The notes under the pieces: generated by a model
Database searches by the model: none
What the model was told of the DNA's origin: nothing
What the model saw: the letters and a program-made list of their open reading frames with translations, nothing else
Shown: positions 556 through 27,583 of the stretch, piece by piece
How positions within the stretch are numbered: position 1 is the stretch's first letter
Layout: every line of letters starts with the position of its first letter
Made by a program: the position numbers and the translations under genes
Assembly: GCA_902577575.1 (NCBI GenBank)
Contig: CACGZQ010000004.1
Location: 1 to 64,000, forward strand
Direction: 5' to 3'
Source of the DNA: an uncultured Pelagibacteraceae bacterium
GTDB taxonomy: Bacteria; Pseudomonadota; Alphaproteobacteria; Pelagibacterales; Pelagibacteraceae
DNA length: 64,000 nt

Positions 556-1602
556 ATGTCAAAAATCGTAATTATTGGTGCTGGTGCGATGGGTACAGCT
601 TTCTCTTTACCTTGCCTAGATAATAATCATGATATCAATATTGTTGGAACTCACCTCGAAAATGATTTTATTGATAAAATTAAAAAAAATAAAAATTTAC
701 ACCCAGGTTTAAATACTCAAATTCCAGAGCAAATAAATATCTTTAAATTTGAAAAATTTGATGAAATCTTAAATTCTAAAGTAGATTTAATAGTATTAGG
801 AATAAGTTCAAAAGGCATAGAATGGGTTGCAGATCAACTAAGCAGACTCTACACGGGGAAAAATCTGCCAAATTTACTAATGCTAACTAAAGGTCTTAGC
901 GTCTACAAAAACAATTATGAATTATTAGTTGATAAATTGGAGAGGTTGCTTTTTGATAAGGGCATTTCAAACGTTAATATTTCAGCCGTAGGAGGACCTT
1001 GTTTAGCTGCTGGGTTAGCTAATAGAGTTCATAGCAGTGTAGTTATAGCAAATAAAAATTTAAGTATAGCAAAAAAAATAGCCGATATGTTAAATACTAG
1101 TTATTATCATACTTCTTACTCTGATGATTTAAATGGTGTTGAAGTATCAGCCGCGATTAAAAATATTTTTTCTATGGCGGTAGGTGCAGCTAAAGGCTTG
1201 TGTAGTAAAAATATTTCTGATGAAGTTAGAGAAAAAAACTATCTAAATACAGCCTCTGCACTAATAAAACAATCAATTTTTGAAATGGAAATCTTTGTAG
1301 AACATCTCAAAGGAAAAAAAGAAACTGTAAAAGGATTAGCTGGTTTGGGAGATCTTTATGTAAGTTCAGGTGGAGGAAGAAATGCAAAAATGGGAGCTTA
1401 TATTGGAGAAGGCTTAACATTCACAGAAGCAAAAAAAACAAAAATGGAAAAAGTTACTGTTGAAGGCGCCGATTTAGCGAAAGAGATTGCAAAAAAAGTT
1501 AATGAGGATTTTGATGAAAAAAAGTTACCTTTAATGCTAGGTATGATTAATGCTATTGTTGAAGATAAAAAACTTGAATTAAATTGGGAAGCATTTAGAT
1601 GA
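556..1602 (+). CDS. gpsA: Glycerol-3-phosphate dehydrogenase [NAD(P)+]
   Basis: N-terminal Rossmann GAGAMGTA; GGPCLAAGLA; EVSAAIKNIFSMAVGAAKG; GLAGLGDLYVS. Confidence 0.93.
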   Translation: MSKIVIIGAGAMGTAFSLPCLDNNHDINIVGTHLENDFIDKIKKNKNLHPGLNTQIPEQINIFKFEKFDEILNSKVDLIVLGISSKGIEWVADQLSRLYTGKNLPNLLMLTKGLSVYKNNYELLVDKLERLLFDKGISNVNISAVGGPCLAAGLANRVHSSVVIANKNLSIAKKIADMLNTSYYHTSYSDDLNGVEVSAAIKNIFSMAVGAAKGLCSKNISDEVREKNYLNTASALIKQSIFEMEIFVEHLKGKKETVKGLAGLGDLYVSSGGGRNAKMGAYIGEGLTFTEAKKTKMEKVTVEGADLAKEIAKKVNEDFDEKKLPLMLGMINAIVEDKKLELNWEAFR

Positions 1603-3080
1603 AAAAGTTTATAATTTCTATTGATGCAGGAACAACATCTAATAGATCAATTTTATTTGATTTGAAAGGTAAGCCAATTTTTTCTTCACAAAAAGAATTT
1701 ACACAATACTTTCCAAAAAGTGGATGGGTTGAGCATAATCCAGACGAAATTTGGAAAACAACAACAAAAACTTTAAAAGATGTAATACAAAAAGCTAGAA
1801 GCTTAAAAGGTAAAATTTTAAGCATTGGTATCACCAACCAAAGAGAGACCACTGTTCTATGGGATAAAAAAACTGGAAAACCTGTTTATAAAGCTATTGT
1901 TTGGCAAGACAGAAGAACCGAAGAATTTTGCAAAAAACTAAGAAAACAAAATAAGGATACGATGGTTTTTAATAAAACTGGTCTTTTGATAGACTCATAT
2001 TTTTCTGGAACAAAAATTAAATGGATTTTAGACAATGTCCCTAAAGCACGGCAGTTAATGAATAGAAAACAATTGTTATTTGGAACAATTGACAGCTTTT
2101 TAATTTGGAGACTTACAAAGGGAAAAGTTCATGCAACAGATGCAACAAACGCAAGTAGAACAATGATATATAATATTTCCTCAAATAAATGGGATGATGC
2201 AATATTGAAACTTCTCAAAATTAAAAAACATATTCTACCAGAAGTGAAAGATTGTGCAGGTGATTATGGTCAAACTCATCCTTCTGTAACTGGCAAACCA
2301 ATTCCGATTAATGGAGTAGTAGGTGATCAACAATCAGCAACAATTGGCCAATGTTGTTTTGAACCTGGCTCTTTAAAAAGTACTTACGGAACTGGAGCTT
2401 TTGTATTATTAAATACCGGCTCTAAAAAAATTTACTCAAAAAATAGATTATTAACAACTATTGCTTACAGAATTAATGGAAAGACAACATACGCAATGGA
2501 GGGGTCTATCTTTATAGCTGGTGCTGGTGTGCAATGGTTAAGAGATAGAATGAAATTTTTTAAGAAAGCACCTGAAACAGAAAAAATAGTCAAATCACTT
2601 CAAAATAACAATGACATTTATTTAGTTCCAGCATTCACTGGATTAGGAGCACCGTATTGGGACGCTAATGCCAGAGGAGTCTTAAGCGGCATTACTAGAG
2701 ATACAAGTCCTAAAGAGATAGTCAGAGCTACGATCGAAGCAGTAGCTTATCAAACTCACGATCTTTTTGAAGCTATGAAACATGACGGTTTAAGACCTAA
2801 AATTGTTAAAGTTGATGGTGGGATGGTAATGAATAATTGGTTTTCACAATTTTTATCTGACATAGTGAATGTAAAAGTGTTAAGACCTAAAGTTCAAGAA
2901 ACCACTGCGTTAGGTGCAGCTTTTATGGCTGGTTTGTACATAGGGATATACAAATCATTAAAAGATATTTCTAAAAACTGGAACTTAGATAAAAAATTTT
3001 CACCAAAAATGAAAAATAAATCTAGGACAATTCTAATTAATGGTTGGGAAAAAGCAGTCAAGAGGGCCTTAATAAACTAA
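1599..3080 (+). CDS. glpK: Glycerol kinase (FGGY family)
   Basis: SIDAGTTSNRSILFD, QRETTVLWDKKTGKPVYKAIVWQDRRT, GDQQSATIGQ, STYGTGAFVLLNTG; overlaps the gpsA stop. Confidence 0.96.
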   Translation: MKKFIISIDAGTTSNRSILFDLKGKPIFSSQKEFTQYFPKSGWVEHNPDEIWKTTTKTLKDVIQKARSLKGKILSIGITNQRETTVLWDKKTGKPVYKAIVWQDRRTEEFCKKLRKQNKDTMVFNKTGLLIDSYFSGTKIKWILDNVPKARQLMNRKQLLFGTIDSFLIWRLTKGKVHATDATNASRTMIYNISSNKWDDAILKLLKIKKHILPEVKDCAGDYGQTHPSVTGKPIPINGVVGDQQSATIGQCCFEPGSLKSTYGTGAFVLLNTGSKKIYSKNRLLTTIAYRINGKTTYAMEGSIFIAGAGVQWLRDRMKFFKKAPETEKIVKSLQNNNDIYLVPAFTGLGAPYWDANARGVLSGITRDTSPKEIVRATIEAVAYQTHDLFEAMKHDGLRPKIVKVDGGMVMNNWFSQFLSDIVNVKVLRPKVQETTALGAAFMAGLYIGIYKSLKDISKNWNLDKKFSPKMKNKSRTILINGWEKAVKRALIN

Positions 3081-3186: not shown

Positions 3187-4920
3187 ATGTTTAAAACATT
3201 GAAGAGTATTTTAGCTGTTGCTGTTTCAATTTCTCTATTAACTATTTCAAATGCTGTAGCAGACGGACACGGAGCAGCAATTAAGAAATGGTCAGATGGT
3301 GAGTTTAGTCTTTCAACAATTTCTGCAAAAGAAAGAGAGAAAGAACTTAATTGGTTTCACAATGCTGCAAAGCCATTCAAAGGAATGGAAATAAATGTAT
3401 TGTCAGAAACTATCCCAACTCACGAATATGAGTCAAAAGTTTTAACAAAAGCTTTTGGAGAGATAACTGGAATTAAAGTTAATCACCAGTTACTTGGAGA
3501 AGGAGAAGTGGTACAAGCTGTACAAACTCAAATGCAAACTGGAAGAAACTTGTATGATGCATACATCAATGATTCTGATTTGATTGGTACACATTCAAGA
3601 CTTCAGCTAGCAGTAAACTTAACTAAGTGGATGAAAGGTGAAGGTAAAGACGTTACTTTACCAACATTAGATATCGATGATTTCATCGGTAAATCATTTA
3701 CTACAGGTCCAGATGGTGATTTATATCAATTACCTGACCAACAATTTGCTAACCTTTACTGGTTTAGAAAAGATTGGTTTGATAGACCTGAAATCAAAAA
3801 AGGTTTCAAAGCTAAATACGGATACGATCTAGGTGTACCAGTCAATTGGTCTGCTTACGAAGACATCGCTGATTACTTTACAAATGATGTAAAGAATATC
3901 GACGGTGTTAGAGTATATGGTCACATGGACTACGGTAAAAGAGCTCCAGACTTAGGATGGAGAATGACTGACGCGTGGTTATCAATGGCAGGCGCAGGTT
4001 CAGTTGGTAAACCTAACGGAGTGCCAGTAGATGAGTGGGGAATAAGAATGGAAAAAGGTTCTTGTAACCCAGTTGGTGCTGACGTAGCAAGAGGTGGGGC
4101 TGCAAATGGTCCTGCTGCCGTATATGCAATCAGAAAATGGGACGAGTGGTTAAGAGCTTATGCACCTCCAGGTGCTGCAGCGATGGACTTCTATCAGTCT
4201 CTGCCAGCTTTATCATCAGGAAACGTTGCACAACAAATTTTCTGGTATACAGCGTTCACGGCATCAATGGTTGCTCCAAAGAGTTCTGGAAACAAAACAG
4301 TTGATGATAACGGTAATCCTTTATGGAGAATGGGACCATCACCAAAAGGTCCTTACTGGGATGAAGGTATGAAGCTTGGTTATCAAGATGCTGGATCATG
4401 GACTTTATTTAAGTCTACTCCAGTTGACAGAAGAAAAGCTGCATGGTTGTACGCTCAGTTTGTAGTATCAAAAACTGTTGATCTTAAGAAAAGTGATGTT
4501 GGTTTAACTATCATAAGAGATAGTACAATTAATCACAAACACTTTACTAAAAGAGCTCCAAAACTTGGTGGACTTGTAGAATTCTACAGATCTAAAAACA
4601 GAGTATTGTGGTCACCAACAGGTATCAATGTTCCGGACTATCCGAAACTTGCACAAATCTGGTGGCAACAAATTGGAGATGTAAACTCAGGTGCGTTTAC
4701 TCCACAACAAGCTATGGATCGTCTTGCAGAAGAGATGAACTTAGTTATGTCTCGTATGGAAGCTGCTGATAAAGCAAACAATACATACGGTGGATGTGGT
4801 CCAAGATTAGCTAAGCCGAAAGGTGCTGATTATTGGTTGAAACAACCAGGATCACCAAAAGCAAAACGTAACGAAAAACCTAAAGGTAAAACAGTTCCAT
4901 TCTCTAAAGCTTGGAATTAA
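3187..4920 (+). CDS. glpV: Glycerol ABC transporter substrate-binding protein (GlpV-like)
   Basis: Signal peptide; long periplasmic SBP; gene order with two ATPases, two permeases and a DUF2160 protein matches the rhizobial GlpSTPQUV system. Confidence 0.82.
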   Translation: MFKTLKSILAVAVSISLLTISNAVADGHGAAIKKWSDGEFSLSTISAKEREKELNWFHNAAKPFKGMEINVLSETIPTHEYESKVLTKAFGEITGIKVNHQLLGEGEVVQAVQTQMQTGRNLYDAYINDSDLIGTHSRLQLAVNLTKWMKGEGKDVTLPTLDIDDFIGKSFTTGPDGDLYQLPDQQFANLYWFRKDWFDRPEIKKGFKAKYGYDLGVPVNWSAYEDIADYFTNDVKNIDGVRVYGHMDYGKRAPDLGWRMTDAWLSMAGAGSVGKPNGVPVDEWGIRMEKGSCNPVGADVARGGAANGPAAVYAIRKWDEWLRAYAPPGAAAMDFYQSLPALSSGNVAQQIFWYTAFTASMVAPKSSGNKTVDDNGNPLWRMGPSPKGPYWDEGMKLGYQDAGSWTLFKSTPVDRRKAAWLYAQFVVSKTVDLKKSDVGLTIIRDSTINHKHFTKRAPKLGGLVEFYRSKNRVLWSPTGINVPDYPKLAQIWWQQIGDVNSGAFTPQQAMDRLAEEMNLVMSRMEAADKANNTYGGCGPRLAKPKGADYWLKQPGSPKAKRNEKPKGKTVPFSKAWN

Positions 4921-4987: not shown

Positions 4988-6052
4988 ATGAGCTTAGAAT
5001 TAAAAAACGTTGAAAAAAAAGTAGGATTAGACACTCATATTTATCGAACAAATTTAAAATTACAAAAAAATACGATTAACATTCTTTTAGGTTCTACTTT
5101 AGCTGGAAAGACTACTTTAATGCAGATTATGGCTGGCTTAGATAAACCAACATCAGGCGAGATTTGGTTTAATAATGAGAATGTAACAGGTATGAAAGTT
5201 CAAAAAAGAAATGTCTCAATGGTTTACCAGCAATTTATTAATTACCCCAACTTCACAGTTTATGACAATATTGCATCTCCATTAAAAATTACCGGAGTAA
5301 GTTCAGATGAAACAAAACTGAGAGTTGGGAAAGTTGCAGAATTACTAAAACTCTCTGGAATGTTGAACAAAAAACCAAATGAACTTTCTGGAGGACAGCA
5401 ACAAAGAACAGCTTTAGCAAGAGCACTTGTAAAAGACTCAGACTTAATCCTTTTAGATGAGCCACTTGCTAACTTAGATTTTAAATTAAGAGAAGAATTA
5501 AGAGAGGAATTACCGAAATTATTCGAAAATAGAGACTGTATCGTAGTTTATGCAACCACAGAACCTTCAGAAGCTTTACTCTTAGGTGGTAATACTGCAA
5601 CGTTACAGGAAGGTAAGATCATTCAATATGGAAAAACTTTAGATACTTATAATAAACCTAACTCTTTAGTTTCAGCCCAGGTATTTAGCGATCCACCAAT
5701 GAATATAGCTAAAATAAAAAAATCAGGAGATCAGTGTTCATTTTTACAAAATAACATTCAATGGAAGACTAAAATAAATATCAAAGACGGTGAATATAAA
5801 GTAGGGATTAGACCCCATAATATTACAACATATAAAGAGGGCAATAATACACTTGAGATAAAAGGTAAAGTTTTAATCTCTGAAATCAGTGGTTCTGAGA
5901 GCTTAATCCACTTTACAAACGGAAATTTGAATTGGGTCTCTTTATCTAACGGAGTTTTTCAAAAAAACGTAGGCGATGAGATGAATTTATACATGAATAC
6001 AGATGAGTTTGTTTATTTTGATCAAAATGAAAGGTTAGTATCCAATGGCTAA
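4988..6052 (+). CDS. glpS: Glycerol ABC transporter ATP-binding protein (GlpS-like)
   Basis: Walker A GSTLAGKTT, signature LSGGQQQR, Walker B LILLDEP, C-terminal TOBE-like region. Confidence 0.85.
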   Translation: MSLELKNVEKKVGLDTHIYRTNLKLQKNTINILLGSTLAGKTTLMQIMAGLDKPTSGEIWFNNENVTGMKVQKRNVSMVYQQFINYPNFTVYDNIASPLKITGVSSDETKLRVGKVAELLKLSGMLNKKPNELSGGQQQRTALARALVKDSDLILLDEPLANLDFKLREELREELPKLFENRDCIVVYATTEPSEALLLGGNTATLQEGKIIQYGKTLDTYNKPNSLVSAQVFSDPPMNIAKIKKSGDQCSFLQNNIQWKTKINIKDGEYKVGIRPHNITTYKEGNNTLEIKGKVLISEISGSESLIHFTNGNLNWVSLSNGVFQKNVGDEMNLYMNTDEFVYFDQNERLVSNG

Positions 6053-7109
6053 AGTTACATTAAAAGATTTAAGCCATAGTTATTTAAAAACTCAGTCTTC
6101 AGATGCTGATTGGGCAATTAGAGGAGTAGATATTGATTGGAATGATGGGGGCGCTTATGCTTTATTAGGCCCGTCAGGTTGTGGAAAGACAACATTGTTG
6201 AATATTATTTCTGGATTAATTACCCCAACTAAAGGCGATATACTATTTGATGACAAAGTTGTTTCAGGCTTAAATCCCGTAGAGAGAAATATCGCACAGA
6301 TTTTTCAATTCCCGGTTATTTATGACACGATGACAGTATATGATAATTTAGCGTTTCCTTTAAGAAATAGAAAAATTCCAGAGGAAGAAATTAAAGCAAA
6401 AGTTTATGAGATAGCTGAAATGTTGGAATTATCTTCAACATTAAACAATAGAGCTTCTGGTTTAACTGCAGATGGAAAACAAAAAATATCATTAGGACGT
6501 GGATTGGTAAGATCGGATGTAAATGCTATTATGTTTGATGAACCATTAACTGTAATCGACCCGCATTTAAAATGGATTTTAAGATCTAAACTTAAAGAAC
6601 TTCACCAAAAGATTAATAGAACAATGATTTATGTAACACACGATCAAACAGAGGCTTTAACATTTGCTGATCAAGTAGTTGTAATGCATGAAGGTCAAAT
6701 TGTTCAAACAGGAACACCAGTAGATTTATTTGAAAAACCGAAGCATACATTTGTTGGATATTTTATTGGTTCACCTGGCATGAATGTTTTACCTTGTCAA
6801 ATTAAAGGAAATGATGTGATCGTTAATGGAAAAAAAATAGAAACTCATCAACAAATTAAAAAAAATAATTTTAGCAAGACAGAAGTTGGTGTGAGACCTG
6901 AATTTATATCTTTTAGCAATGAAGGGATTCCAGTCAAAGTTTTATCAGTAAGTAATACAGGAAGGCATAAAATTGTAGATACTGAAAGTGAAACTGGAAA
7001 AATAAAAATGATTGCAAAATCTAATGAAGATATTCCGTCTGGATCTGCATTCTTAAAATTCAAAAAGGAATATACTTTTACATATGGAGATAGTTGGATA
7101 ATTGAATGA
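6045..7109 (+). CDS. glpT: Glycerol ABC transporter ATP-binding protein (GlpT-like)
   Basis: Walker A GPSGCGKTT, Walker B AIMFDEP, H-loop THDQTEAL; overlaps preceding ATPase gene. Confidence 0.85.
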   Translation: MAKVTLKDLSHSYLKTQSSDADWAIRGVDIDWNDGGAYALLGPSGCGKTTLLNIISGLITPTKGDILFDDKVVSGLNPVERNIAQIFQFPVIYDTMTVYDNLAFPLRNRKIPEEEIKAKVYEIAEMLELSSTLNNRASGLTADGKQKISLGRGLVRSDVNAIMFDEPLTVIDPHLKWILRSKLKELHQKINRTMIYVTHDQTEALTFADQVVVMHEGQIVQTGTPVDLFEKPKHTFVGYFIGSPGMNVLPCQIKGNDVIVNGKKIETHQQIKKNNFSKTEVGVRPEFISFSNEGIPVKVLSVSNTGRHKIVDTESETGKIKMIAKSNEDIPSGSAFLKFKKEYTFTYGDSWIIE

Positions 7110-7972
7110 ATAAAACAGTAAATCAAAAAGCATGGTTCTTTGTAATACCAGTATTTGTACTGGTAGCTTTTAATGCCATTATTCCATTAATGACTGTAGT
7201 AAACTATGCTTTCCAAGAAACTTTTGGGAATAATGTTTTTATGTGGGAAGGCACAAGATGGTTTAAACAAATCATGTTGTCTGAAAGATTTCATGCATCA
7301 CTTGGTAGACAATTCTTGTTTACTTTCATAATTTTATTTATACAAATTCCATTAGGAATAGCGATCGCACTTACTATGCCTAAAGAGGGAATAGGAGTAC
7401 CTGTTTGTTTAGTTTTAATGTCCATGCCACTTTTAATACCATGGAACGTTGTAGGAGCCATGTGGAATATTTTTGCATTACCAGATATTGGTTTCTTAGG
7501 TCATTCACTTAATGCTTTGGGATTTGATTATAACTTTACTCAACAAATTGGTGATGCTTGGTTCACAACTATACTAATGGATGTATGGCATTGGACATCG
7601 TTAGTAGTTTTATTGTCTTATGCAGGATTAAGGTCTATTCAACCTGCCTACTATCAAGCAGCAGAAATTGATGGGGCTAGTCGTTGGGCAGTTTTTACAA
7701 AAATTGAATTACCTAAAATGAAAAAAGTATTAACGATCGCAATACTTTTAAGATTTATGGACAGCTTCATGATTTATACAGAGCCGTTTGTTTTAACTGG
7801 AGGCGGCCCAGGTAATGCTACTGCATTTTTATCTATAGACTTAGTAAAAATGGCATTAGGACAGTTTGATTTAGGACCAGCTGCAGCAATGTCGTTGATA
7901 TATTTCTTTATAGTTCTTTTAGTTTGTTGGGTATTCTACACATTAATGATGAGAAATGAGGAGAAATCATGA
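7106..7972 (+). CDS. glpP: Glycerol ABC transporter permease (GlpP-like)
   Basis: MalF-type permease, EIDGASRWAVFTKIELPKM EAA-loop motif; overlaps neighbours. Confidence 0.85.
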   Translation: MNKTVNQKAWFFVIPVFVLVAFNAIIPLMTVVNYAFQETFGNNVFMWEGTRWFKQIMLSERFHASLGRQFLFTFIILFIQIPLGIAIALTMPKEGIGVPVCLVLMSMPLLIPWNVVGAMWNIFALPDIGFLGHSLNALGFDYNFTQQIGDAWFTTILMDVWHWTSLVVLLSYAGLRSIQPAYYQAAEIDGASRWAVFTKIELPKMKKVLTIAILLRFMDSFMIYTEPFVLTGGGPGNATAFLSIDLVKMALGQFDLGPAAAMSLIYFFIVLLVCWVFYTLMMRNEEKS

Positions 7973-8769
7973 AAAAAGCTAAGTGGTTAGTTCCTACAAT
8001 TTATATTATTTTCTTGATGCTTCCAATTTATTGGTTACTTAACATGTCATTTAAAACGACTACTGAGATTATAAACACCTATACATTGTGGCCACAAGAA
8101 TTTACATTAGATAATTATAAGAAAATTTTTACCGACAGTACTTGGTACACTGGGTATCTTAATTCTATTTATTACGTAGTTATGAACACTGTGATTTCAG
8201 TGGCAGCTGCACTGCCTGCAGCTTACGCTTTTTCTAGATATAAATTTTTAGGGGATAAACATTTATTTTTTTGGTTACTAACTAACAGAATGGCTCCACC
8301 AGCGGTATTTGCATTGCCATTTTTTCAATTTTATTCATCAGTAAACTTGTTTGATACTCATGTAGCTGTAGCTTTATCACATTGTTTGTTTAATATTCCT
8401 TTAGCAGTTTGGATTCTAGAAGGGTTTATGTCTTCTGTGCCAAAAGAATTAGATGAAACAGCTTATGTAGATGGTTATTCATTTTGGAGATTTTTCTTCA
8501 AGATATTTATTCCAACAATTACTGCGGGTATAGGTATTACTATGTTTTTCTGTTTTATGTTTTCTTGGGTAGAATTATTATTAGCTAAAACACTTACTGC
8601 TGTGGCAGCGAAACCAATAGCAGCAACGATGACCCGAACAGCCAGTACCTCTGGTTACGAATTAGGTTTATTAGCAGCAGCAGGTAGTTTGACAATTATA
8701 CCCGGTGCAATAGTAATTTACTTTGTAAGAAACTATATAGCCAAAGGATTCGCGTTAGGAAGAGTATGA
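7969..8769 (+). CDS. glpQ: Glycerol ABC transporter permease (GlpQ-like)
   Basis: MalG-type permease, DETAYVDGYSFWRFFFKIFIP EAA-loop motif. Confidence 0.85.
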   Translation: MKKAKWLVPTIYIIFLMLPIYWLLNMSFKTTTEIINTYTLWPQEFTLDNYKKIFTDSTWYTGYLNSIYYVVMNTVISVAAALPAAYAFSRYKFLGDKHLFFWLLTNRMAPPAVFALPFFQFYSSVNLFDTHVAVALSHCLFNIPLAVWILEGFMSSVPKELDETAYVDGYSFWRFFFKIFIPTITAGIGITMFFCFMFSWVELLLAKTLTAVAAKPIAATMTRTASTSGYELGLLAAAGSLTIIPGAIVIYFVRNYIAKGFALGRV

Positions 8770-9125
8770 TGATGATAAATATTTTATATGCCGCAACTTG
8801 GGGGGACATGGCTAAGAAAAAAGAAAAAGGGTTCTTTGATTTTGAATTTATCACTTGGATGGCATGGACCTGGCAAACTGCAGCTTTCTTTATCTTTATA
8901 GTTTTATGTTTAACAGCAATGGTAATATGGGAAAAAAAATCACCTGGGGGTAATCCAAGAAAAGGTATTTTAGGTTTAGATACTACTAGAGGAGACAGAC
9001 TATTTATATCCTTGTTAGGAAGTGCATTTATTCATTTATTTTGGCTAGCTCTTGTCGGTAGTATTTTATGGCTAGCGACAATTTTATGTGTTTTCTATGC
9101 TATTATTGTATTTAGATACGTTTAA
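8766..9125 (+). CDS. glpU: Small DUF2160-type membrane protein (GlpU-like)
   Basis: Two-plus TM segments, GLDTTRGDRLF; position at end of glycerol ABC operon. Confidence 0.75.
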   Translation: MMMINILYAATWGDMAKKKEKGFFDFEFITWMAWTWQTAAFFIFIVLCLTAMVIWEKKSPGGNPRKGILGLDTTRGDRLFISLLGSAFIHLFWLALVGSILWLATILCVFYAIIVFRYV

Positions 9126-9143: not shown

Positions 9144-10427
9144 ATGTTTAAAAAAATAATTAGTCTTTTATCTTTTGCTTCTTTAATCACTCTATTAACT
9201 TTAATAATTATTTTTTTTATAGTCGATTTGAATATCTTTGGCTTAAAGGTAAAACTTTACAATTCGTTTCCTAATTTTGAATTAAGAAAGATTATCTTAA
9301 AAAAAGATTCAAAAATAGAGCATTTTGTTAATGATTATAATGTAAAATTCTTACCTTACACACAATTTGAAAAAGTGAATTTTACAAAGAAAAAAATAAT
9401 ATTTGAAAATGATCTAATATCAAAAAATAATAATTTGGATACTTCAATAGCATATAAAAGATATAATTCTTTTTATATAGATTTTTATAAAGATAATTTG
9501 TTATTAACTGATCACATTGGAAACATTTATTATATTAAAAAGACAAAGTTATTTTCTTCAATAAAAAACTTAAAAGCAAAGAATATAAAAGGTAATTTAA
9601 ACGTATCTAGAGTTTTTGACTCATTTGTTTACGATGATAAAATTTTTGTTTCATTTACATCTCAGGAAAAGGATTGTAATGAGATAAATATTAGTTATGC
9701 AAATATTAATCTGGAGTCATTAAAATTTGAAAATTTTTTTAGCTCAAATGAATGCAACAAAACAGGATCTCCAGGCAGAATACAAATATTTGAAAAAAAT
9801 GGGATTAAAGGTCTATTAGTAAGCACCGCTGAAGGAATTCACGATGAACCAGGTAACAATACACAGAATAAAGACTCAATATTTGGTAAAATTTTATTCA
9901 TTCCAATAAATGAACCTAATAATATTGAAATATATTCTATGGGACATAGAGTAATACAAGGCCTTTCAGTGAATGATGGTATTGTTATTTCTACAGAACA
10001 TGGACCACGTGGCGGTGATGAAATTAATAAAATTTTATCCAATAAAAATTATGGATGGCCAATAGTCTCCCTAGGAGAAAGATATGATTTTAAATATAAA
10101 AATAATAATTTAACTTATAAAAAAAATCATTCCAAATTAAACTTTGAAGATCCAATTTTTAGTTTCATACCTAGTATTGGAATCTCTGAAATCATAAAGT
10201 TACCATCTGATTTTTCTATTTATTATGATAATCACTACTTATTATCTTCACTGAATGGAAGAAGTTTATATTTTATTAGATTTGACCAAAACTTTAAAAA
10301 AGCTGTTACGATAGAAAAAGTTTTTATAAACAAAAGAATCAGAGATATTAAATACCTAGAGGATAATAGTAATATAATATTAGCTTTGGAGGAAAACGGC
10401 GAGATAGGAATAATCTCCAACAACTAG
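9144..10427 (+). CDS. Membrane-anchored PQQ-type sugar dehydrogenase-like beta-propeller protein
   Basis: N-terminal TM; GHRVIQGL...STEHGPRGGDEIN...NYGWP typical of glucose/sorbosone dehydrogenase propellers. Confidence 0.7.
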   Translation: MFKKIISLLSFASLITLLTLIIIFFIVDLNIFGLKVKLYNSFPNFELRKIILKKDSKIEHFVNDYNVKFLPYTQFEKVNFTKKKIIFENDLISKNNNLDTSIAYKRYNSFYIDFYKDNLLLTDHIGNIYYIKKTKLFSSIKNLKAKNIKGNLNVSRVFDSFVYDDKIFVSFTSQEKDCNEINISYANINLESLKFENFFSSNECNKTGSPGRIQIFEKNGIKGLLVSTAEGIHDEPGNNTQNKDSIFGKILFIPINEPNNIEIYSMGHRVIQGLSVNDGIVISTEHGPRGGDEINKILSNKNYGWPIVSLGERYDFKYKNNNLTYKKNHSKLNFEDPIFSFIPSIGISEIIKLPSDFSIYYDNHYLLSSLNGRSLYFIRFDQNFKKAVTIEKVFINKRIRDIKYLEDNSNIILALEENGEIGIISNN

Positions 10428-26512: not shown

Positions 26513-27583
26513 ATGTCCAATAATTTTTTTGAGATTCAAAATGGTAATTTTACTGCGAGTGAAAAAAATAAAGTAAATGATGTAAATTTAATTATAAAAA
26601 AACAGGGGGAAATAATTTCTTTGTTGGGTCCATCTGGAATAGGAAAAACCACTTTGCTAAGAACGATTGCTGGTTTACAAAAACTTAGTGGAGGTAAAAT
26701 TAAACTTAGAGATAAGATTTTAGCCTCTGATGAAATTCATATTGAGCCAGAAAAAAGAAATGTTGCCCTTTCTTTCCAAGATAATTCTCTTTTCCCTAAT
26801 TATAAAGTTATTGACAATATAAACTTTGGAGAAAAAAGATCTAATGGTTATGGCCCAAATGTAGATGTTAAAGAAATAATTAATTTATTAAGAATTGAAC
26901 CTATATTAGAAAAATATCCTCATCAAATTAGTGCCGGAGAGGCACAACGTGTTTCATTAGCTAGATCTCTAATGTCTAAACCCGATTTATTATTACTAGA
27001 CGAACCATTCTCAAATATAGATCAAAGTCTTAAGGAAGAAATACAGGCTTCAGTTAAAAAACTTTTAAAAAGAATAAATTTGACAACTATCATAGTAACA
27101 CACGACTCCCACGAAGCTTTTTCGATGGCTGATAAATGTGGAATAATACTAGATCAAAAATTAAAGCAATTCGATATACCTTATAATGTACATCACGAGC
27201 CAAATTCAATTGATGTTGCAAATTTTTTAAATAAAGGAATTTTTATCGATGTTCAAGTTGTAGATAGTGAGTGTGCAGTTCATAGACTCAAACATGATGA
27301 ACTAGGGGAAATTAGAGGAAAATTATCAAACAATTTTCCATCTGGCTCAAAAGTTAAATTACTTTTACAGCCTGAGGATTTAATACACGATGATCAAAGT
27401 AAACTAAAATTAGAGGTAGTTGATAGAAAGTTTAAAGGAACAAATTTTATTTATACTTTAAGAACTAAAAAAGGTGAGCATTTACCTGTATTTGTCCACT
27501 CTCATCATATCCATCAACACGAGAAGTCAGAACAATTCGGTGTTAAGTCTCCGATTTATATTGACCATCTAGTATGTTTTTAA
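26513..27583 (+). CDS. Iron(III) ABC transporter ATP-binding protein
   Basis: Walker A GPSGIGKTT, signature ISAGEAQRVSLARS, Walker B LLLLDEP, H-loop THD. Confidence 0.88.
   Translation: MSNNFFEIQNGNFTASEKNKVNDVNLIIKKQGEIISLLGPSGIGKTTLLRTIAGLQKLSGGKIKLRDKILASDEIHIEPEKRNVALSFQDNSLFPNYKVIDNINFGEKRSNGYGPNVDVKEIINLLRIEPILEKYPHQISAGEAQRVSLARSLMSKPDLLLLDEPFSNIDQSLKEEIQASVKKLLKRINLTTIIVTHDSHEAFSMADKCGIILDQKLKQFDIPYNVHHEPNSIDVANFLNKGIFIDVQVVDSECAVHRLKHDELGEIRGKLSNNFPSGSKVKLLLQPEDLIHDDQSKLKLEVVDRKFKGTNFIYTLRTKKGEHLPVFVHSHHIHQHEKSEQFGVKSPIYIDHLVCF

Follow-up and report, generated by a model that had tools for sequence, protein, structure and literature searches.

Motif asymmetry in the paired ATPases of a glpSTPQUV-type glycerol importer suggests one canonical and one degenerate ATP site

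We found that GlpS and GlpT, the two MalK-family ATPases of a predicted glycerol ABC importer from an uncultured Pelagibacteraceae (SAR11) bacterium, depart from the ABC consensus at one of their two composite ATP sites, and that this pattern is fixed among their homologues. In ABC dimers, each composite nucleotide site joins the Walker A and H-loop side of one subunit to the signature and D-loop of its partner. The site on the GlpT side, built from the GlpT A-loop, Walker motifs, Q-loop and His together with the GlpS signature and D-loop (ANLD), is canonical in every element. All deviations, those of the A-loop, relaxed Walker A, H-loop, signature and D-loop, fall on the site that combines GlpS with the signature and D-loop of GlpT. 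Nothing argues more strongly for an organized asymmetry than this one-sided spread. Both subunits keep the catalytic Glu and the Walker A Lys, so the degeneration is only partial. The initial annotation of this DNA had predicted one intact and one degenerate site from a canonical signature and a lost H-loop His in GlpS, and a retained His and a non-LSGGQ signature in GlpT. Both motif readings are borne out (Table 1); the cis and trans assignment of the motifs is right, and sequence tests favor the prediction. The loss of the A-loop aromatic in GlpS and the altered D-loop of GlpT add to the deviations that it had listed.

The window, meaning the whole 64,000-nucleotide stretch that was analyzed, belongs to a 681 kb assembly that is 64% complete. 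Its cluster runs gpsA-like, glpK, glpV, glpS, glpT, glpP, glpQ and DUF2160, followed by a gene for a GSDH-family protein. The glpT start codon (ATG, 6045-6047) overlaps the end of glpS (stop codon, 6050-6052), and the glpT TGA overlaps the glpP ATG at 7106. The cluster holds the full glpSTPQUV-type set of two MalK-type ATPases, two permeases, a DUF2160 protein and a GlpV-type binding protein. GlpV shares 60 to 80% identity over nearly its full length with the known family and up to 99% with uncultured Pelagibacteraceae genomes, the closest named relatives of the assembly. Judged by gene set and GlpV similarity, the importer is identified as a glpSTPQUV-type glycerol ABC importer; it is predicted to transport glycerol, a role for which the operon's glycerol kinase lends some support.

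A glpSTPQUV glycerol importer is known from Rhizobium leguminosarum VF39 (Ding et al. 2012, as cited in PMC7912956). The window shares its gene set and its S-T-P-Q-U order, and a plasmid copy from R. leguminosarum is 50% identical to the window in GlpS and 58% in GlpT. That copy carries the same motifs, with ATTEP in GlpS and QGLTADQKQK in GlpT. The window operon differs in having gpsA-like and glpK genes upstream, glpV first and no glpD or glpR alongside. A search of 41 genomes of the genus for the C-terminal domain of GlpD (PF16901) yielded no match, an absence that is not firm, as the model matched 6 of 14 controls and no alphaproteobacterial one. With this domain not found, oxidation of glycerol-3-phosphate in the SAR11 host may proceed through the GpsA-like enzyme. 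Against the PQQ glucose/sorbosone dehydrogenase model, the GSDH-family protein falls a long way short of the curated cut-off. Elsewhere on the same contig, an ABC importer ATPase (L158:2460-3581; PF00005 match 26576-27010) reads ISAGEAQR for LSGGQ and keeps its H-loop His.

Table 1. Genes of the glp cluster and ATPase motifs, with positions in the window
Feature	Position	Strand	Remark
GpsA-like NAD(P)-dependent glycerol-3-phosphate dehydrogenase of SAR11 glp cluster	556-1602		
GlpK, glycerol kinase	1599-3080	+	scores over its equivalog cut-off
GlpV, substrate-binding protein of GlpST importer	3187-4920	+	
GlpS, MalK-family ATPase subunit	4988-6052	+	354 aa; consensus signature, H-loop His lost
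GlpS A-loop position V12	5021-5023	+	aromatic lost
GlpS Walker A GSTLAGKTT	5090-5116	+	Lys and GKT kept, remainder relaxed
GlpS signature LSGGQQQR from L133	5384-5407	+	serves GlpT Walker A site
GlpS Walker B Asp-Glu and D-loop DEPLANLD	5456-5479	+	Glu158 retained
GlpS H-loop YATTEPSEA	5549-5575	+	T191 (5558-5560) in place of His
GlpT, MalK-family ATPase subunit	6045-7109	+	354 aa; His intact, signature non-consensus
GlpT A-loop Y13	6081-6083	+	invariant
GlpT Walker A GPSGCGKTT	6168-6194	+	
GlpT degenerate signature LTADGKQK from L140	6462-6485	+	D143 at second Gly of LSGGQ
GlpT Walker B and D-loop DEPLTVID	6537-6560	+	D-loop unlike S/A-N-L-D
GlpT H-loop His199 in YVTHDQTEA	6639-6641	+	invariant
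GlpP, permease	7106-7972	+	
GlpQ, permease	7969-8769	+	
GlpU-like small membrane protein, DUF2160	8766-9125	+	
GSDH-family (soluble aldose dehydrogenase-like) protein	9144-10427		directly 3′ of DUF2160 gene

The motifs are where they were said to be. Alignments of GlpS and GlpT to solved MalK-family ATPases, made with phmmer, span the motif regions, and AlphaFold models of each protein, built individually from alignments of window and genome-contig sequences, reached mean pLDDT values of 91.7 for GlpS and 85.5 for GlpT (65-88, and thus less certain, around GlpT residues 140-200). In the GlpS model, a strand (185-190) ends just before T191 and a helix (193-199) follows; GlpT places a strand at 193-198 just before H199 and a helix at 201-207. 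The signature helix begins within the motif in both models. Since alignments and models agree, the motifs are not misplaced, and no alternative position for the His or the signature emerged. Over the whole chain, the best solved matches were MalK-type (TM-score up to ∼0.89 for GlpS and ∼0.88 for GlpT), which gives both proteins the MalK-type fold with its C-terminal regulatory domain. Fold, C-terminal domain and motif register are thus common to GlpS, GlpT and the MalK/UgpC/SugC ATPases of CUT1 importers. E. coli MalK is a homodimer.

We collected homologues from 80 genome-contig loci, genome searches and plasmid records and, after removal of duplicates, compared 202 GlpS and 187 GlpT sequences with 37 canonical UgpC/MalK-type relatives. 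LSGGQQQR is invariant in GlpS (202/202), and the H-loop His is absent from every sequence, replaced by Thr in 158 and Ser in 44. Val or Ile replaces the A-loop aromatic in 191/201. The Walker A Lys is present in all 201 GlpS that cover the position, with GK[TS] kept and the second residue of the motif variable; the Q-loop Gln and the Walker B Asp-Glu occur in 202/202. GlpT is the reverse: all 187 sequences retain the H-loop His and none has LSGGQ, Asp occupying the second Gly in 186 and Lys-Gln lying two positions beyond it in 187/187. The GlpT D-loop (TVID) and A-loop Tyr are likewise found in each of the 187. The MalK/UgpC/SugC relatives differ, with His and LSGG together in 37/37 and an aromatic A-loop in all 36 that cover it. 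A contrast of this size is much greater than chance would give. Neither GlpS nor GlpT combines LSGGQ and His in one subunit, and the homologue with both motifs canonical that would have spoken against the initial annotation was not encountered among the 202 GlpS and 187 GlpT. Weighted by clusters at 80% identity (96 for GlpS, 79 for GlpT), the entropy of the Walker A Lys, Q-loop Gln and Walker B Asp and Glu is zero in both subunits.

The 64% completeness and small size of the SAR11 draft might invite the explanation that the pattern reflects decay under genome reduction or sequencing error. The chance of this is negligible: the homologue counts refute it, and the same pattern recurs in bacteria that have large genomes, namely Rhizobium, Roseobacteraceae, and beta- and gammaproteobacteria. 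It was found, in all, in alpha-, beta- and gammaproteobacteria and in one SAR324-labelled bin. Among 399 sampled Pseudomonadota genomes, 86 had GlpT above 320 bits and 86 had GlpS above 270 bits, the weakest GlpS match lying at 276 bits, at the E 1e-60 limit. No intermediates were seen in these genomes: with the T2 query described below, scores fell from >320 bits to <232 with an empty gap between. As H-loop loss and signature degeneration are both fixed, the family offers no internal variation in which the two could co-vary. Given its conservation in all the GlpS and GlpT compared, the ATPase asymmetry is regarded as an ancient, maintained feature, not decay.

Gene order joins the two subunits closely. 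We counted 203 pairs with glpS ahead of glpT on one strand and none with the order reversed; the 20 unpaired rows belong mostly to loci whose retrieved sequence stops short of the partner gene. Multitask ATPases do exist among CUT1 importers (PMC7658222), and GlpS and GlpT could in principle each form homodimers or work with a different ATPase. This is very improbable, given the adjacent pairs and the two defective sites that each homodimer would contain, the defects being complementary only in the heterodimer. That any two-gene MalK pair turns asymmetric was rejected as an explanation: a tandem MalK-type pair in Pelagibacteraceae (L152:6851-8961) is canonical in both motifs of both subunits, so gene duplication alone does not yield asymmetry, and this pair is a useful natural control.

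A sister importer carries the same pattern. Its genes encode a DhaR-like regulator, an NAD(P)-dependent alcohol dehydrogenase, a binding protein, two permeases and two ATPases, here called S2 and T2. It occurs in some Pelagibacteraceae (L151, cut by the contig end; L154, 8437-16217; and L156) and on annotated Ponticoccus, Tabrizicola and Streptomyces plasmids (among loci L284-L288); the ATPase pair is also present in Ensifer and on a second Streptomyces plasmid, in records lacking annotation. The L154 binding protein had no Pfam or NCBIfam match, and the substrate is perhaps a small diol or polyol. S2 has Thr for His and LSGGQQQR in 8/8; T2 keeps His with a non-LSGGQ signature in 8/8 and has Asp at the second Gly in 7/8. 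The exception, Ensifer T2 (L285, ORF from 2610), has Gly there (LTAGEKQ); it and the GlpT of genome G838 (L251:920-2365; LGAADKQ) are the only T-type sequences seen without this Asp. In a maximum-likelihood tree (quick method), GlpS groups with S2 and GlpT with T2, each with 100% SH-aLRT support, a grouping to which the motif columns retained in the alignment contribute slightly. The canonical ATPases lie outside both clades, each of which sits on a long stem (∼1.6 changes per column), and H-loop loss and signature degeneration map to these stems. Two loci considered as T2, L186 and L246, were rejected, as the tree places both within the glycerol clade. The pattern shared with S2/T2 indicates that the asymmetry is older than the split of the two systems. 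Because plasmids transfer, the Streptomyces copies do not date it.

Asymmetric ATP sites are textbook knowledge in exporters. CFTR, TAP, TM287/288 and BmrCD resemble GlpST in having one canonical and one degenerate composite site, and in several degenerate-site exporters the H-loop and the opposing signature are altered on the same site (PMC7756269). The remark in the initial annotation that such asymmetry is less discussed for importers needs correction, since the fused CUT2 ATPases RbsA and NupO are importer components with one degenerate site (PMC11466899). They differ from GlpST in carrying two domains per chain, in having lost the Walker A Lys of one site and in belonging to another family (PMC11466899). 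Replacement of the catalytic Walker B Glu is called a hallmark of a degenerate site (PMC7544095), and in degenerate-site exporters this residue is usually altered (PMC7756269), whereas GlpST, a type I importer, retains it at the weak site throughout the family. Because of this retained Glu, GlpST is filed as working like the asymmetric ABC ATPases and not as a typical member.

Invariant catalytic Glu, Walker A Lys and Q-loop Gln at both sites would also suit a dimer in which both composite sites hydrolyze ATP, with Thr or Ser at position 191 and the LTAD signature as working alternatives. DppDF is a precedent: it is a heterodimeric ATPase pair in a bacterial importer, DppABCDF, in which both sites hydrolyze and single E-to-Q mutants of either subunit retain similar ATPase activity (PMC12136057). 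DppD and DppF are, however, both reported with functional motifs (PMC12136057), while in GlpST a single site departs from consensus in its His, signature, A-loop and D-loop, with Asp at the second signature Gly. We consider hydrolysis at both sites unlikely.

GlpS and GlpT probably form an obligate heterodimer in which the canonical site hydrolyzes ATP and the weak site does not do so at a useful rate, most likely holding ATP or partly closing. The heterodimer would sit beneath the permeases GlpP and GlpQ, and ATP would be hydrolyzed by the Walker A and B motifs, Q-loop and His199 of GlpT with LSGGQQQR of GlpS. The weak site, in which T191 takes the place of His and the A-loop aromatic is missing, and which faces LTADG and TVID, would contribute a structural or regulatory role through ATP retention or partial closure, so that each import cycle would cost one ATP. 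The weak site probably still binds ATP, because neither subunit varies at the Walker A Lys, the Q-loop Gln or the catalytic Glu. The retained Glu makes slow hydrolysis there possible, and Thr or Ser might partially substitute for His.

A variant of single-site hydrolysis, overlapping with this heterodimer, has the weak site bind no ATP at all, GlpS being a scaffold that supplies its signature to GlpT. It would suit the near-complete loss of the A-loop aromatic in GlpS, the variable second Walker A residue and the Asp that the opposing signature would place at the gamma-phosphate. The invariant Walker A Lys, GK[TS], Q-loop Gln and Asp-Glu of GlpS would be unexpected in a nonbinding scaffold, and we hold this variant to be rather unlikely, preferring a weak site that keeps its ATP. 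The signature Asp of GlpT stands at what we take to be the position of CFTR G551. In CFTR, G551D is reported to obstruct the conformational changes that come after ATP has bound at the canonical site (PMC9304199). It is possible, and we put it forward tentatively, that throughout this MalK-type clade one site hydrolyzes per cycle and the second serves as an ATP-bound hinge that keeps its Glu and is silenced by the opposing signature Asp.

We found no description of a fixed asymmetric site in MalK-type importers in the open literature searched, outside which the founding paper of the glp system (Ding et al. 2012) lies, and priority for the GlpST asymmetry cannot be claimed firmly. The usual route to asking whether a type I importer must hydrolyze one or two ATP in each cycle is to engineer mutants of homodimeric MalK. 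The GlpST family is a natural single-site candidate that occurs across alpha-, beta- and gammaproteobacteria, with relatives carried by Streptomyces plasmids. Its two sites lie on different subunits, so either can be mutated independently of the other. The family also shows that an Asp at the CFTR G551 position of the signature can become a fixed trait of a transporter family if the site that it faces looks noncatalytic. If the one-site reading holds across the clade, GlpST would be a naturally evolved type I importer that spends one ATP per cycle.
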